NCBI GenBank assembly: GCA_018398585.1
Contig: JAGTTD010000025.1
Location: 16,249,578-16,313,577 of the forward strand
Direction: 5' to 3'
DNA: 64,000 bases
DNA from: Simmondsia chinensis
Lineage: Eukaryota > Streptophyta > Magnoliopsida > Caryophyllales > Simmondsiaceae
Each line of letters opens with the position of its first letter. The stretch's first letter is position 1. The position numbers were made by a program, and so were the translations under genes. Shown in pieces: positions 7,910 through 51,211 of this stretch. The notes under the pieces are model-generated. The model searched no databases. It was not told the DNA's origin and worked only from the letters and a program-made list of their open reading frames with translations.

Positions 7910-8323
7910 TGATGCAGCGCGAAGTGGGAAATTAGGGAAAATGGAAAGGTAACGATGTCCTTCGCTTAATTTTATTACTGAAATAAAATAAAAGGGAAAA
8001 AATAGTCTCGATTCTCACAACTTGAGAAAGGAGGAAACAAGGTATAAGTTTTTTTTTTTTGTTGGAAAAAAATGAATGAATGAAACCCTAGCTACCAATC
8101 TCTTTAAATAGAAGGGATTCCTAAATCCTATAGGAAAACTAATTTAAATTTTAAATCAAATTCAAAACATAAACAATAAGAGATAAAAAAAAATAAATAT
8201 AAATTTAAAACAAATTCAAACTTCTATCTATTGGCGCCTACTCGGTCCCGTCGAGCCAGATCCGCTCCGTTGTCCGGGACCCCGTTTCGCCAATACAGTC
8301 CCGTTACGGCCTAAGCTGCATCA
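7910..8323 (-). repeat. 3' LTR of the 7.9-13.1 kb gypsy element
   Basis: 414 bp, pairs with 12707-13119. Starts TGATGCAGCGCG and ends AGCTGCATCA, so its ends form a 9-bp inverted repeat. A TATTTAAA-like box lies on the minus strand near 8103-8110. Confidence 0.93.
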
Positions 8324-12706: not shown

Positions 12707-13119
12707 TGATGCAGCGCGAAGTGGGAAATTAGGGGAACAGGAAGGTAACGACGGCCTTCCCTTAATTTTATTACTGAAATAAAATAAAAGGGGAAAAATA
12801 GTCTCGATTCTCAGAACCCGAGAAAGGACGAATCAAGGTATAAGTTTTTTTTTGTGGGAAAAATAATGAGTGAATGAAACCCTAGCTACCAATCCCTTTA
12901 AATGGAAGGGATTCCTAAATCCTATAGGAAAACTCATTTAAATTTTAAATCAAATTCAAAACATAAACAATAAAAGATCAAAAAAAAAAAAAACTTAAAT
13001 TTAAAACAAATTCAAACTTCTATCCGTTGGGGCCGACTCGGTCCCGTCGAGCCGGATCCGTTCCGTTGTCCGGGACCCCGTTTCACCAATACGGTCCCGT
13101 TACGGCCTGAGCTGCATTA
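12707..13119 (-). repeat. 5' LTR of the 7.9-13.1 kb gypsy element
   Basis: 413 bp, pairs with 7910-8323. The outer end reads GCTGCATTA where the other copy has GCTGCATCA (one C/T change). TSD GATTG follows at 13120-13124. Confidence 0.93.
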
Positions 13120-13265: not shown

Positions 13266-13540
13266 ACTAATAAGATGAATATGGAACATGGAACATACCC
13301 AGTGTCTAAAGGGCTCCCGTCTATGCAGGGTCTGGGGGGGTGGATATACGCAGCCTTCCCCCTTCAGGGTGTTAACCTAAAGAAATGTTGTTTCCCAGTG
13401 CCCCCAACATGAGGGTGCAGACATCCCAAGAGGTCACCCATCCTGGTACTACTCTCGCCTAAGCACGTTTAACTTTGAAGTTCTAATAGGATCCAGTGAC
13501 GGCGTGTTGGTACCCTCTTTGGCACTAATAAGATGAATAT
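13266..13540 (-). mobile_element. 5S rRNA-derived SINE, copy 1, with 17-bp TSD
   Basis: Element 13283-13523 on the minus strand, bounded by a perfect 17-bp TSD ACTAATAAGATGAATAT (13266-13282 and 13524-13540). The first ~110 bp (minus strand, from 13523) are close to plant 5S rRNA: AGTTAAACGTGCTT (A-box region), GGCGAGAGTAGTAC and AGGATGGGTGACCTC (C-box region) are recognisable, so the RNA polymerase III internal promoter was inherited from 5S. The ~130-bp 3' part is not 5S. It contains TTAACACCCTGAAGGGGGAA and GCATAGACGGGAGC, and ends CACTGGGTATGTT, a tail shared with the RTE LINE at 49.2-50.1 kb. Long variable TSDs and lack of LTRs argue for target-primed insertion rather than a Cassandra-type LTR element. 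Confidence 0.85.
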
Positions 13541-13682
13541 ATACATGTAAAATTGGAAAAAAAATGCTAAAATATGAAATAGAAACGAAAAAGAAATAAA
13601 TAAAGGAAGGACTCAAAAGTTACAATCTCGCAAGGCGAGCGTGTGTACTCACGCGCGGCCCTTAGCCAATAGGGCGTCCATC

Positions 13683-13804
13683 AGGCTGTATTTTTTTTTT
13701 TTTTTTTTTTTATGTTGGTAAAGGCAGGGGAGGGGGGTCACTAGTGGGGTTCGATCCCCGGCGCTCTCACACGGCCACCGGGCACCTTACCACTAGGCTG
13801 TATT
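13683..13804 (-). mobile_element. tRNA-type SINE with poly(A) tail
   Basis: Insert 13693-13794 between a 10-bp TSD AGGCTGTATT (13683-13692 and 13795-13804). On the minus strand it starts AGTGGTAAGG (A-box-like) and has GGGATCGAACCCC (B-box-like) about 35 bp later, then a short body and a poly(A) tail of about 20, seen as poly(T) at 13691-13711. A short tRNA-related head with poly(A) is the standard plant SINE layout. Confidence 0.65.
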
Positions 13805-14045
13805 ACATTTTGATGTCATGCTAATATCATCAATCCGTGCCATTGGTGGGTGCATAACGTGTTTAATATTTATTTGTCGTTTTGTCCTTCATTGTCCTAA
13901 ATCAGTAAAAAATATTAACTTTATAAAAAAAAATTATAATAAATAGTTTTGGAAATTGTGTTTAGCATCCAATTTTATCTAAAGAACTTTGTCGTTTCAA
14001 AATTAAAGGAAGAATTTGTTTAGGAAAATTTTCCTATGTTGAATA

Positions 14046-14117
14046 TTTTTTGAGCCCATACTTTTTTTTTTTTTTTTGGTAAAAAGGAATTGGAAAGATT
14101 TTTTTGAGCCCATACTT
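14046..14117 (-). mobile_element. Tail-only retroinsertion of 38 bp
   Basis: The 17-bp repeat TTTTTGAGCCCATACTT occurs at 14046-14062 and 14101-14117. Between them lie 38 bp: a poly(T) run and GGTAAAAAGGAATTGG. This is what an extremely 5'-truncated minus-strand SINE or LINE insertion with its poly(A) tail would leave. Confidence 0.65.
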
Positions 14118-15685
14118 CAGATAGTTTTAAAAAAAATTGCAAAAAAGACTTGGTGAAATTAAAATTTCTATGACACATTTATTTAGTTTTGGAAATTGTG
14201 TTTAGCATCCAAATATAGTACGTTGCTTGTTATCCGCTGCCTCTACTTGCAAATGGATACTTCAACTGTTAGATATGAACAATGCCCTTCACCATATTAA
14301 TTTAGACAAGGCGGCTATATGAAGATCCTGCAAGGCTTTGCATGTGACAACGATATATACTCTAGTCTAATTTCCTTTTCAGTGTTTTTAGCTAGGTTAC
14401 ATTGAATTGGTACCACAAGTTTACTACTCATCTCTTAGTCGGCTTTTAGCGGGTTAAGTTAAACTATTCACATTTTACCTTCTCCCGGGAGGCCACTTCA
14501 CTTGTAGTCTTTATTTTTGTTGATGATGCCATCATCACTAGGATTAATGACAAACAAAATGCTAATCCTATATGGCATTTCTATTAGTAATTTCACATCC
14601 AGGATCTTGGACATTTTAAATACTTTTTCGGAACCGAGGCACTCAATTTGTACTATAAATTTCATGGCATGCATTTTTCCCATCCTTTTGACAAAGTGTA
14701 CCTTGTATCTTGTGCATGCCAATTCCAATAACTAGGATCTTGTCCCCAAGTGATATTGAGACCACTTGCAAACACCATGAAACAATTGATATTACCTTTC
14801 TCCAACCAATATTTCTGCAAACAGTGAAAGACAATAAATTTACAAAATCAAGCTTATTTACCTTATACAGGCCAACTTAAGCAAACTTAAAAGTCGATTC
14901 TAAGTTAAGTACAGTGGAATTAGTGTCCCTCGAGCCTAAACAATTCATATAGAGATAAAATACAAGCCTAAACAAACAAAGCTCATTTGCTGAGCTCAAA
15001 TTTTGAACTCTCATCGAGCTGGACAAATGATGATAGAATAATTTGAAACAAACATGACATATAGATAGCTAGTTTAGGCTAGGGTTTTTGGAAGTTAAGC
15101 TGACACCCTTAAATTATTTATGTAATTGGGTTAAATTTTAATTTGACCAGAGTCCACATGCTTCTAACACGTTGAACCTACTCATGTAGGCGTGTCACAC
15201 ATTCGCATTGACAAACTAGTACGTAGAAAAAAAGTTCACCCATATAACTAAGCAGGATAGGTCACGAGCTGTTTGTTTCTTAATTGGATTGGGTAAGAAT
15301 TGAAGGTTCCTAACTTATTTAATAAACAAACTAGGCTCTATTCTACCTTTGATTTAAATTCCCATATATAAATTGAGCATGTAGGTGACATGAAACGACG
15401 CATTTACCATTCCTAAATCTCCATATTTAGAGAGCTTCAAGTCAAATAAAATATCGCCAAACCCAGGCTTACCACAACCCCTTGTATATGGGAGATGCGT
15501 TTGTCAAATATTTCACCTCTTCCAAGTATGTTGCTATATGCTTCCTTATAAAGTGAGAGCATGCTTCTTTAAAAAACCTATTTTACTAGTGGAATTAGAC
15601 CCAGTATCTTTCAAGTTTCGATTTTTGTCCAATTACCAAACAAAGTGTCCTCTATTTAGGTTATTTGAAATAAAAGAAAAAAAGG
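14118..15685. other. AT-rich intergenic DNA, nothing recognised
   Basis: Short frames in both directions around 14500-14830 overlap each other and match no family I know. No terminal repeats or primer sites seen. Confidence 0.4.
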
Positions 15686-16061
15686 GCTATTTGTGCCAAA
15701 GGTCCCTATACTTTATATATTGTGTCAATTTAGTCCTTGTACTTTTAATTATGTCAATTTAGTCCCTCTACTATTTAAATTGTGTCAATTTAGTCCAATT
15801 ATCGAATTCAGGTTAAGTTAATGATGTAATTTTTAACAGCACAAATGCAAGTAATCCACTACAAATTCACCCATTGACTCAATTTAACCCAATCCATAGC
15901 CGAATCATTAAAATTTTCATCAATAACTTGACATAAATTTTATTTTAGGGACTAAATTAACACAATTTAAATAGTATAAGGACTAAATTGAAATAATTAA
16001 AAGTATAATGATTAAATTGACATAGCAAGCAAAGTATATGGACTTCTGACATAAATAACCT
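15686..16061. mobile_element. Fold-back MITE, copy A
   Basis: About 375 bp with long, imperfect inverted halves. The left half reads GGCTATTTGTGCCAAAGGTC, then repeated GTCAATTTAGTCC words. The right half, read on the minus strand, gives GGTTATTTATGTCAGAAGTC with the same words. Related copies are at 32267-33153 and about 53090-53337. No transposase. A TSD was not clear. Confidence 0.65.
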
Positions 16062-16247
16062 AAGAAACAAAATGATCTTCGGAAATGAAAAATTGGAGAG
16101 AGGATGATATACTTTGGAGCATCTCCATGGGTTGGCTTTTGGGTGTTAGCTTGGTATACTACCTTTCTTTATAAATAAAAAGGAAGTTATGAGAAATGTT
16201 GACTCTATCTTAAGACAGTCAAAGTACCCCCCTTGCATTTATTTATT

Positions 16248-16526
16248 AAAAAATTCTTCTAAAAAGCAAAAAACCAACATACCTAGTGCCCAAAAGACTC
16301 CCGCCTGACTAAAGTCTGGGGGCCGGATGTACATAACCTTTCCCCTGAGGGTAATACTCCTGAAGAGAAACTGTTTCCGAGTGCCCCTCAACCTAAGGGT
16401 AAGGACTTCCCTAGAGGTCACCCATCCTACTATTGCTCTTGTCCAAGCATGCTTAACTTTAAAGTTCTAATGAGATCCAGTAACGACGTTTTGGTACACT
16501 CTTTGGTATCAAAAAAATCTTCTAAA
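16248..16526 (-). mobile_element. 5S rRNA-derived SINE, copy 2
   Basis: Element 16264-16510 on the minus strand, flanked by a 16-bp TSD with one mismatch (AAAAAATTCTTCTAAA at 16248-16263; AAAAAAATCTTCTAAA at 16511-16526). Same build as copy 1: a 5S-like head with AAGTTAAGCATGCTT and GGATGGGTGACCTC, then the non-5S body with GGGGAAAGGTTATGTACATC and tail GCACTAGGTATGTT. It is more diverged from 5S than copy 1, so the two copies were inserted independently. Confidence 0.82.
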
Positions 16527-17106
16527 TTTAAGAAAAGTACTTACCTTTCTCTTTCCGTTTAAGAACACACCGCGGCATAGCTGCTCATACAACTTCTCAA
16601 GCGAGGATCTGTCGACGGGGAAGTCAGAGTCTCTAATGATGACATCCCAGTTGTGAGGAAGCTGTGGCTTCTTCTTGTGATTATCAACTTGTTGAGTTAT
16701 TTCGCTTGCAGTATCATCAGCTTCACGACAAAACAAAGCTCCCATTTTGGTTTGTTATTAGGACTTTTGAGAGTATTCGTCAATTAAGCAACTCTTTTTA
16801 TACTTAGATTATATACCATATGCGAGTCCCAATGTTTCGTGGAAGGGAATCTTTTGTACGTTTTTTTTTTAATTATTGAAAATGAAAATTGGAGTTAACT
16901 GTACAAAGTGTAATCGACAAGTTAGAATAAGTTAAATTGACGCAAATATTAATAGCAAAGAACAAAAGAATAAAGGGTGAATTAGGCATCGCCAATCCCA
17001 AATTGCAGGTAAATTTTGCAATACATATAATTCTAGTCTTGGAATATAATTAGGGTGCTCACTATTTGAGAGTTGAGAGTTTTTTTGTAGATTTCTCTGT
17101 CCATAA
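16527..17106. other. AT-rich intergenic DNA, nothing recognised
   Basis: An open minus-strand frame at 16509-16745 (78 codons) overlaps the SINE edge. It resembles no family I can name. Otherwise no structure seen. Confidence 0.35.
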
Positions 17107-32266: not shown

Positions 32267-33153
32267 GGCTTATTAACCATAAAAATTCCTATACTTTGAC
32301 CATGATATCAATTTAGTTCTTAGACCTTTAATTGTTTCAATTTAGTACATATACAATTGATATTATGCCAATTTTGTCCTTATAATAAAATTTATTTTAA
32401 GTGGTTAATGAAATTTTAGTGATTCATCCATAGATTGTGTTGAGAACTCCAAATGTGAATCTATGTAGGTGAATCCCACATTGGAATTGTGACACTGAAG
32501 ATGTTAGCTTATAAGTGTAGTAGGTTACTCCACCTATTGCCGATTTGTTTTAGGATGGAACCCCACTTGGGCTTATATGTGGATCTCAAGTATGCCAACT
32601 CCATGGGTTTAAGCCTAGTGAAGTGTAACATGAATTTAGAGTTGGTGGATGATCCCAGACTCTTGTTTGTCAACACTTTGTCCAAAGGGGTGCATTTGTG
32701 TTTGGTGCTAAGAGGGCTTCTCCAGTATGTTAGATCCAGTTAGATTGGAGAAGGCTAGGGGTGCATTTGAAATAGCCTCACATGTGAGGGTGAGTCTTGA
32801 GAATTCCACATGTGAATCTATGTAGGAGAATCCCACATTAGAGTTGTGAGAGTGAAGAAATCAATTTATAAGCATAGTAGGTTACTTCACCTATGGCCAA
32901 TTGGTTTTATAATGGAACTCCATTTGTTGTTATATGTAGATCTCATGTGTGCCAACTCCGTGAGTAGAGCCCAAAGGCCCGATGAAATTTAACAGATTGG
33001 ATTAATTTGAATCAATGTGTGGATGGCAGTGGGTTACTAGCACCTAACTTAATTGTGCTATTAAAAATTATGTCAATAACTTAACTAAAATTTGACTGAC
33101 GAATTAAACTGATATAATAAAAAATGTATAAGGATGTTCAAGTGTAAATAACC
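32267..33153. mobile_element. Fold-back MITE, copy B, with nested miniature LTR element
   Basis: Left arm 32267-32437 (GGCTTATTAACC, CTATACTTTGACC, repeated CAATTTAGT words). Right arm 33000-33153, ending GTGTAAATAACC. Removing the nested element and one GATTG leaves about 325 bp, similar in length and words to copy A. TSD of the MITE itself not clear. Confidence 0.6.
32433..32999 (+). mobile_element. TRIM (miniature LTR retrotransposon)
   Basis: Element 32438-32994 with TSD GATTG at 32433-32437 and 32995-32999. LTRs 32438-32630 (193 bp, TGTTGAGAA...GTGTAACA) and 32795-32994 (200 bp, start TCTTGAGAA, end TTTAACA). The 164-bp interior begins TGAATTTAGAGTTGGTGGA, a worn version of a TGGTATCAGAG primer site, and ends with a GTGAGGGTGAG purine run. 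It is too short to encode anything and must have been mobilised in trans. A solo LTR of the same family is at 17495-17691. Confidence 0.82.
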
Positions 33154-49211: not shown

Positions 49212-50156
49212 ATGCTACAACTGGTACAACTGGACAGCAAAGTTAACAAGGATGTCAACAACTGCATTTAAATAGGCTGGCATCAAAAGAGGTTGGCCTC
49301 TATTGTACTAGGCGATAAAAAGCTCCTATTAAAGTCAAAGGAAAAATACTATAAGACAATAGTGAGACCGGCTATGTCTTATGGTGCGGAGTGTTTGCCA
49401 TTGAAATGCCTTCATACACAAAAGCTGAAGGTGGCGGAGATGAGGATATTGCTGTGGATGTATGGACACACAAGGAAGGATATTATCAAAAATGACGTCA
49501 TAAGAGGCAAATTAAGCATGGCACTGATCGAAGATAAATTAAGGGAGCAGCGTTTGCGGTGGTTTGGACATATTCAGAGGAGACTACCACTGTCCCTTTT
49601 AAGAGATGCGATCAACTCTATGCCACAATAGGGAGGAGAGGGAGAGGCAGGCCAAAGAAGCAATGGATGGAGATAATCCGACATTACCTCACCCACCTAA
49701 ACCTATAAGAGGAGATGGTCTTAGATAGAGCTTAGTGGAGGGAAAACATATGGGTGGCCAACATAGGGGTGGCCAATGTAGCGGTGCAACGGTGTAGGAC
49801 AGAGGAACTTATTTTGTCTAGCACTAATACCCTTAGGCTTATATGTCTTCCTATTTGGCTTACGTGATATGTTTGAGAGTTGTTGTATCGTCTATCGCCT
49901 GTTGCTGCTTCATGCTTTTTTTATGTTTGCTCTATGCCGCTGTGTTTGCTCTTGTTCTTGTTGTTCTTGCTCTTATAGTTTTATGCTTGTATGCTTCATG
50001 CTTGTATGTCTATATGCCTCTCTTCTTCTCAAGTTGGTGGTCCTCGGACACAGCCTCCCTTAAGGGTAACACCTTGAAGGGGTAAGGTTGCTTACACCTT
50101 GCATATGCGGGAGCACTCGAGGCACTGGGTCAGTTGTTGTTATAACAATGCTACAA
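49212..50156 (+). mobile_element. 5'-truncated RTE-type LINE
   Basis: Insert 49221-50147 between the 9-bp TSD ATGCTACAA (49212-49220 and 50148-50156). It contains the last ~110 codons of the ORF (49293-49631) and the 3' UTR. The final ~100 bp (TTAAGGGTAACACCTTGAAG, GCATATGCGGGAGC, GGCACTGGGT, then GTTGTTGTT) match the 3' part of the two 5S SINEs. It sits in the RLK intron between exons A and B, on the strand opposite to the gene. Confidence 0.85.
49293..49631 (+). pseudogene. RTE LINE reverse transcriptase C-terminal part
   Basis: 112 codons. Y-Y-K-T-I-V-R-P-A-M-S-Y-G-A-E-C, then V-A-E-M-R-I-L-L-W-M-Y-G-H-T-R-K-D and L-R-W-F-G-H-I-Q-R-R, all hallmarks of the C-terminal part of plant RTE-clade LINE proteins. 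The endonuclease and the catalytic reverse transcriptase core are missing through 5' truncation. Confidence 0.85.
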
Positions 50157-51211
50157 GTGTTAATCCATCCTTAGCAAAAGGCCATGCAGCTTGCATCTAA
50201 AGGTAACAACCATACAACCAAAAAGTGGGGCATATGAATCTCATTTTTTGCCTAGGTATCCGCATGATTGATCTTCCATTGAGGAAAGGAAGTAGCTTTT
50301 AGAACATTTCTGCCTTAGATGTGCACCAATTTCCCGCATTTGTTGAATCTAACTCAATCACCAAGTCCTTGCCATGAAGGTTACTTCTTTGAATCGAAAC
50401 TTCTAACACAAAGCATGTAGCTTCGGTATTGGCCTAGTTCCACTTCTTTAATCCAATTTCTTTGGAAAAGACTCCTAGGAATGTCCCGTAATGATCACAC
50501 AAAACGCCACAAATACTTTTCGGTTCTGGCTAAGGTTGTTAGGACAAATTGGCTAGAACAGGGATTAGGTAGATTATGTAGTTGGTCCGATTTGTAGGGG
50601 CTGGTGTAACCCATTAGTAATGCAAAATAAAAGTGAAAAATTCAATTTGATTAGGGCAAAATTGAAACAACATGGAATAAATTGGAGACAAAATGCTAGG
50701 GTTCTGCTAGATGAAAGTATGGAATGAATAACAATAACAACCTTAAAGAGTATTTATAGGGAATAATTAGCAAACACCCTGGAATGCAAAATTACTAAAA
50801 TGTCAATAAATCCCTAAAATGTAAATTACTAATATGCCACTACATGTCTGCAAAACACAAAATTGACCTGAAAACACGCTAAATTTATGAAAAATAGGTG
50901 GGTCAGCAGCAAAGTAGCTGAATATGCATAGTTCACTCTAAGGGAATTGTTTTTACATATAGTGGTCTCCATAACTCCTTACAGGTCAAAGGTTATGGCT
51001 GTTTAAAATTACATCACAATTCGTTGTGTCCAACCAACTATCAATTGGGGTCAAGAATGAGTTGAATATTGAACTCGAATATCCAATATTTGAAATGACT
51101 TATCTGGTTAAATACTTTATCGGGTCGGATGCAACACATTTTGGTGCATGTCTAATTCATTGCCATCCCCATTTCTAAGGTTGAGCTTTTCAGTTATATT
51201 AGAAGTATCAC
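50157..51211 (-). other. RLK intron, part of an old LTR possible
   Basis: 50,520-50,930 has LTR-like words (for example a GTATTTATAGGG TATA-like region), but no ends, primer site or partner were found. Confidence 0.35.

Follow-up and report, generated by a model that had tools for sequence, protein, structure and literature searches.

A high-copy family of 5S rRNA-headed, LINE-tailed elements in Simmondsia chinensis, very probably SINEs of the SINE3 type

The window, by which we mean the whole 64,000-nucleotide stretch of Simmondsia chinensis DNA that was analysed, contains two full-length minus-strand copies of a ~235-bp element. Its 5′ half (~107 bp) is derived from a 5S rRNA gene, while its 3′ half (~125 bp) is an RTE-clade LINE tail. 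Copy A occupies 13283..13523 (profile positions 2-237) and copy B, which is older and about 21% from the family majority, occupies 16264..16510. Both lie between target site duplications (TSDs). For copy A, ACTAATAAGATGAATAT is present on both sides (13266..13282 and 13524..13540; 17/17 identical), and copy B is bounded by 16248..16263 and 16511..16526, which agree at 15/16 positions; for each copy, a match of equal length arose in 1/2000 random 30-mer window pairs. The duplications were therefore recovered as the first-pass annotation had described them, one of 17 bp and perfect, the other of 16 bp with one mismatch. Since the two copies are only 76% identical, they represent separate old insertions rather than a recent duplication. 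With a TSD pair for each, the annotation's view of them as independent holds. Their description as lacking LTRs also stands, as the sole LTR-like pair overlapping the searched flanks (12707-13117 and 7910-8321, 91%) belongs to a Gypsy element that does not extend as far as copy A.

Other features lie nearby. Copy B sits in sense orientation within the putative first intron of a minus-strand gene at 14665-16745, for which we discerned exon 1 at 16545-16745 (67 aa, with a GT donor) and another at 14665-14814. The gene is presumably phloem-protein-2-like; exon 1 had no Pfam match. Beside copy A, on the minus strand at 13690-13810, we noted by eye what looks like a tRNA-headed SINE, with an A-tail and stretches similar to an A-box and a B-box; a scan of the window with ARAGORN gave no tRNA genes. 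A long inverted repeat at 15685-16060 (72% over 381), which has relatives at 32290 and 53078, is most likely a MITE, since its matches to the microRNA families MIR2630 and MIR2655 fall far under the cut-offs. A kinase-like ORF elsewhere in the window has one protein match (E 9.9e-12) and no Pfam match.

The Rfam 5S model (positions 1-120) spans the 5′ halves of both copies. The heads, at 13407..13520 in copy A and 16390..16507 in copy B (both minus strand), score 55.4 and 51.5 bits against RF00001, for which the gathering score is 38. Each head contains the parts of a 5S internal promoter: box A, intermediate element and box C. The box A to box C segment, at 13432..13474 in copy A and 16416..16458 in copy B (minus strand), has the Cassandra-type spacing, in which 18 nt separate the two boxes. 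Copy B agrees fully with the promoter-box consensus reported for the 5S domains of Cassandra (PMC7215508), and copy A departs from it at one position. No shuffled sequence gave such a match (0/100). Together, the Rfam scores and the promoter-box match bear out the claim that both copies have 5S heads with A-box and C-box regions. Head A did not fold better than its shuffled versions (z -0.47).

The remainder of each copy, which the annotation had called a non-5S body with an RTE-LINE tail, resembles a LINE 3′ end present in the same window. The tails extend over 13283..13412 in copy A and 16264..16395 in copy B, on the minus strand. Scored against the LINE 3′ end at 50000-50160, they reach 57 (A) and 32 (B), above shuffled maxima of 28 and 26, and 0/500 shuffles reach either score. 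The heads score 13 and 12 against the same region, under the shuffled mean of 14.9. Thus, the similarity belongs to the tails and not to the heads.

This LINE piece, at 49272-50136, was absent from the first-pass annotation and is the strongest in-window evidence for the LINE tail. It consists of a decayed, RTE-like C-terminal protein fragment of 119 aa (49272..49631, plus strand), which matches 29/36 candidate proteins (E 0.001), and a 3′ tail common to the SINE tail (50027..50136, plus strand; profile match 111-234, E=1.3e-19). All 11 protein matches with a named organism are from plants, one of them an annotated reverse transcriptase, in line with a plant host. We found no Pfam domain in the ORF fragment, which we assign to the RTE clade from what we take to be a characteristic C-terminal motif.

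Across the genome, the majority sequences of the SINE and LINE tails coincide at 114/132 positions. Among 22 head-less tail pieces, 20 terminate in TTG-type repeats, including the variants TTATTG and TGATGATG, and TTG repeats are the reported ends of plant RTE LINEs (PMC3747384). These ends, together with the insertion signature described below, support the RTE label of the window LINE. Such pieces had a TSD score of at least 12 at the tail start in only 6/21 cases, a low share that counts against our reading; the controls gave 2/420, and the pieces with strong TSDs of their own are very short LINE insertions. Head-less LINE tail pieces beginning at or near the tail start were seen at L009, L011, L014, L022 and L077. 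Counting against an RTE partner, the SINE itself terminates in TATGTTCC-like units, unlike the TTG repeat of the LINE pieces. As none of the 22 head-less pieces ends in TATGTTCC, they do not point to the exact partner LINE. The SINE and these LINE pieces differ in their 3′ terminal repeat, a feature that RTE-mobilised SINEs usually, and not by definition, hold in common with their partners. In legumes, RTE SINEs are reported to end in Tn and their LINE in (GTT)n (PMC13295347).

We searched the host assembly (831 Mb in 35 contigs) with copy A. All 40 scored hits, out of 9,904 first-look candidates, were near full length; one was copy A itself, and the remaining 39 stood at 89-91%. A pattern of 25 fixed bases across the 5S/tail junction had at least 2,312 exact matches (1,130 + 1,182), and the reversed control had none. 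Because copies that differ at any fixed position escape the pattern, this number is a floor. The annotation had allowed that the two window copies might be the only ones; they clearly are not. The same junction pattern gave 0 matches in viral, bacterial and archaeal contig collections, as did a 5S core pattern and a tail pattern in viral contigs, results that are uninformative on plant distribution. A protein search with translated copy B returned nothing.

We characterized two sets of copies, both biased to young copies by how they were drawn: a best-hit sample (L001-L030) and the first 30 places along contig C1 (L061-L090). L001 is copy A, L004 and L005 represent a single insertion found on two contigs, and L078 and L079 have near-identical neighbourhoods. 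Divergence from the majority was 1.7-6.3% in the best-hit sample (L005 left out), except for copy A at 10.5%, and 1.1-11% in the contig C1 sample. The dispersed copies have one sharp 5′ end. On contig C1, 23/30 extend to the 5′ end of the profile, whereas 7/30 start later, at positions 10-75. At 13 of the 60 retrieved SINE loci, the flanks held a second head-bearing copy. We conclude that the family is real, fairly young and high-copy.

The annotation had called for a genome search for copies with individual TSDs, and such copies are frequent. In the best-hit sample, 25/30 had a TSD score of at least 12, compared to 0/868 swapped-flank pairs, and 28/30 scored at least 11, while the best swapped-flank pair scored 10. 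On contig C1, scores of at least 12 were obtained for 14/23 full-length and 2/7 shortened copies (controls 2/870). The copies scoring under 12, 5/30 in the best-hit sample and 14/30 on contig C1 (9/23 full-length, 5/7 shortened), count against mobilisation as a SINE. TSDs of the family are mostly 13-21 bp long.

The insertion sites carry a signature. From 58 loci (the 60 less the duplicates L005 and L079), we kept the 37 with a TSD score of at least 13 that ended no more than 3 bases from the element, and dropped 21. Upstream of the TSD, T was found at position -10 in 28/37 loci (P=9.3e-7), at -9 in 26/37 and at -11 in 23/37, against a background of 0.359; in the control, the maximal T count over 90 columns was 20. 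The first base of the TSD was T in 20/37 and the second was A in 18/37. Plant RTE LINEs and their SINEs are described as having a T-stretch ~10 nt before the TSD, which begins with T and then A, in contrast to the L1 insertion site, TT|AAAA (PMC13295347). Since the signature matches that of plant RTE elements, it connects the family with the RTE machinery by evidence separate from the sequence of the tail.

The signature also counts against a second reading, in which this is a true 5S-SINE that was moved by an L1-type LINE and has an RTE-like tail merely by ancestry. Among plant LINEs, L1 is the main clade (PMC3747384), and A-runs terminate both L014 and L095, which counts against mobilisation by RTE. 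However, L014 stands alone in the best-hit sample, where 29/30 copies have no terminal A-run, and the sites carry the RTE-type T-run at -10 rather than TT|AAAA. We therefore consider an L1 mover very unlikely.

Still less probable, to a degree that leaves it scarcely credible, is that the copies are solo LTRs of Cassandra, a miniature LTR retrotransposon with 5S in its LTR. Cassandra is the known plant 5S retroelement and, like the SINE, has boxes A and C separated by 18 nt (PMC7215508), and at one locus, L094, the order is that of Cassandra: 5S, then ~120 bp ending in CA, then TGGTATCAGAGC. Against this, the SINE 5S starts at the 5′ end of the element, while the 5S of Cassandra is described as never lying at an LTR terminus (PMC10853983). 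The other half of the SINE is a LINE tail, shortened copies occur, and the TSDs are mostly 13-21 bp, not 5. LTRs, a primer binding site, 5S inside an LTR and a short TSD are all missing from the dispersed copies. The annotation had named copies throughout the genome with TG...CA LTR borders and 5-bp TSDs as an outcome that would refute its reading; we found instead a sharp 5′ end, a LINE tail and 13-21 bp TSDs. Across the whole genome, a C-box preceded the Cassandra primer binding site at 2 places with a spacing of 61-121 bp and at 3 with 111-171 bp. The two former places are not 5S. Of the latter three, one is a tandem array of 5S-tail units into which a TRIM has inserted, another is a deleted SINE copy, and the third is L094. 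With these two exact patterns of limited spacing, which fall short of showing absence, we found no clear case of Cassandra in the host. Within ~1.1 kb downstream of the L094 primer site there was no second copy of the LTR-like part.

5S pseudogenes are common in genomes. That the copies are simply 5S rRNA retropseudogenes landed by chance in or beside LINE tails is nonetheless refuted, as the identical junction recurs at least 2,312 times and the TSDs lie outside the 5S and tail taken together.

We return to the reading of these copies as a SINE family, and to the source of its head. Out of 51,838 first-look candidates, the Rfam search gave 47 scored host 5S matches, all above the cut-off; a pair of arrays on contig C8 accounts for 46 of these, and the remaining match is on C29. 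We aligned the SINE majority with one gene from each array, a check that the annotation had proposed. Over an 82-bp block from CACCGG to GTCCTC, the majority agrees at 79/82 positions with the gene from the second array and at 78/82 with the gene from the first, which supports a 5S-derived head. The first 27 bases show partial agreement with host 5S genes, and the 5S 3′ end, GTGTTGC, is missing from the majority. The C-box is AAGATGGGTG in both compared host genes and AGGATGGGTG in the SINE, the latter being the form termed canonical (PMC10853983). This difference suggests that the head was captured earlier than the present host 5S genes or from another variant.

Together, our results are best explained if the element is a SINE3-type family with a 5S head and an RTE-clade LINE tail, most likely transcribed by RNA polymerase III and inserted by an RTE LINE, an identification we regard as very probable. 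As in SINE3 elements, the 5′ head is 5S-derived and contains an internal promoter, the 3′ end is LINE-derived, and the copies are dispersed, lack LTRs and have individual long TSDs. As in RTE-mobilised plant SINEs, 3′ sequence is held in common with a plant RTE LINE (the clade label being partly our assumption) and the sites carry the Tn-TA signature.

In the mechanism that we propose, RNA polymerase III, brought to the 5S boxes by TFIIIA/TFIIIC, would most likely transcribe the SINE from its first base into the flank. TTTT is absent from copy A and occurs in copy B once, at position 214, and in a run at its end. The RTE reverse transcriptase would then recognise the tail of the SINE, the RTE protein would nick DNA downstream of the T-run, and the SINE RNA would be copied in by target-primed reverse transcription, giving rise to a duplication of mostly 13-21 bp. 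Polymerase III transcription and tail recognition are suggested by the anatomy of the element; nicking and target-primed reverse transcription are supported by the TSDs, the shortened copies and the insertion signature. The family may still be active today.

Some 5S-tail joins elsewhere in the genome retain the 5S 3′ end, wholly at L093 and in part at L094. At L093 (positions 1-362; C8:28039700-28040400), tandem 138-bp units consist of 5S and the first ~36 bases of the RTE tail. Their 5S lacks its first ~20 bases, has a full 3′ end and carries the host-type C-box. A TRIM of 292 bp, which has LTRs of 72 bp and a TGGTATCAGAGCC site, breaks the array. At L094 (positions 225-480; C16:2256700-2257400), there is an old 5S-tail piece with part of the 5S 3′ end and, beyond ~120 bp, a Cassandra-type primer site. 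This piece is a SINE interrupted by an LTR or else what is left of a Cassandra-like element. At L095 (C34:6654500-6655000), a deleted SINE copy terminates in an A-run; it is flanked by near-identical stretches of ~36 bases and followed by a primer binding site. By eye, a duplication of ~36 bases is unusually long.

The dispersed family has thus lost part of the 5S 3′ end and kept the canonical C-box, whereas the L093 units have the full 3′ end and the host C-box, so that L093 is possibly a second 5S capture. We raise, as a tentative and on balance improbable idea, that plants have a SINE3 lineage of their own, born by fusion of a full-length 5S gene with an RTE tail, perhaps repeatedly. If true, a plant SINE3 element would be the kind of 5S donor proposed for Cassandra, for which an origin by SINE3 insertion into an LTR is a proposal cited in PMC10886601. 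At L094, a SINE-like 5′ end, 5S and the start of the tail precede an LTR-like end and a Cassandra-type primer site, an order that an insertion of this kind may have left behind. The proposed route from SINE3 to Cassandra becomes testable.

5S-headed SINEs are known in animals and a fungus (PMC5063351, PMC3272025, PMC10886601); for animals, the literature agrees with the annotation (PMC10886601, PMC3747384). A 2022 review describes plant SINEs as derived from tRNAs (PMC9033089), and AnnoSINE merely names 5S among possible head types (PMC8825457). The annotation knew of no established plant 5S-SINE family, and we likewise found none in the open-licence literature that we searched. The combination of a 5S head and an RTE tail is already known in animals and, within that literature, was not found for plants. 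Capture of the 5S promoter by LINE-mobilised elements is thus shown in plants too, by a fairly young, high-copy family. The family is also another example, in plants, of the RTE insertion signature, here with a non-tRNA head; the signature therefore goes with the tail, not with the promoter.

Among known systems, the tobacco TS SINE is similar in that its 3′ part is common with a plant RTE LINE, both TS and that LINE ending in TTG repeats (PMC3747384). Many angiosperm SINEs have a 37-bp 3′ Angio-domain (PMC9033089). Unlike the 5S head here, the heads of TS and Angio-domain SINEs are derived from tRNA. The 3′ end of our SINE may resemble the Angio-domain. Cassandra, a plant TRIM, resembles the family in that a 5S promoter serves a plant retroelement; it differs in being an LTR element with a primer binding site, and its 5S is described as inside the LTR and never at the end (PMC10853983). 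SINE3 of zebrafish and HaSE3 of Lepidoptera and its kin have a 5S Pol III promoter head and a LINE-derived 3′ part (PMC10886601, PMC3747384), in animal hosts, and AmnSINE1/SINE3 tails are of the CR1 type (PMC3747384) rather than RTE. Ped-1 of the springhare (Pedetes), like the SINE described here, joins a 5S head to the tail of an RTE-clade LINE, BovB (PMC3747384). Its host is a rodent and its tail is that of BovB, and the likeness is one of published description. Ped-1 and this plant SINE are unlikely to have a common origin.
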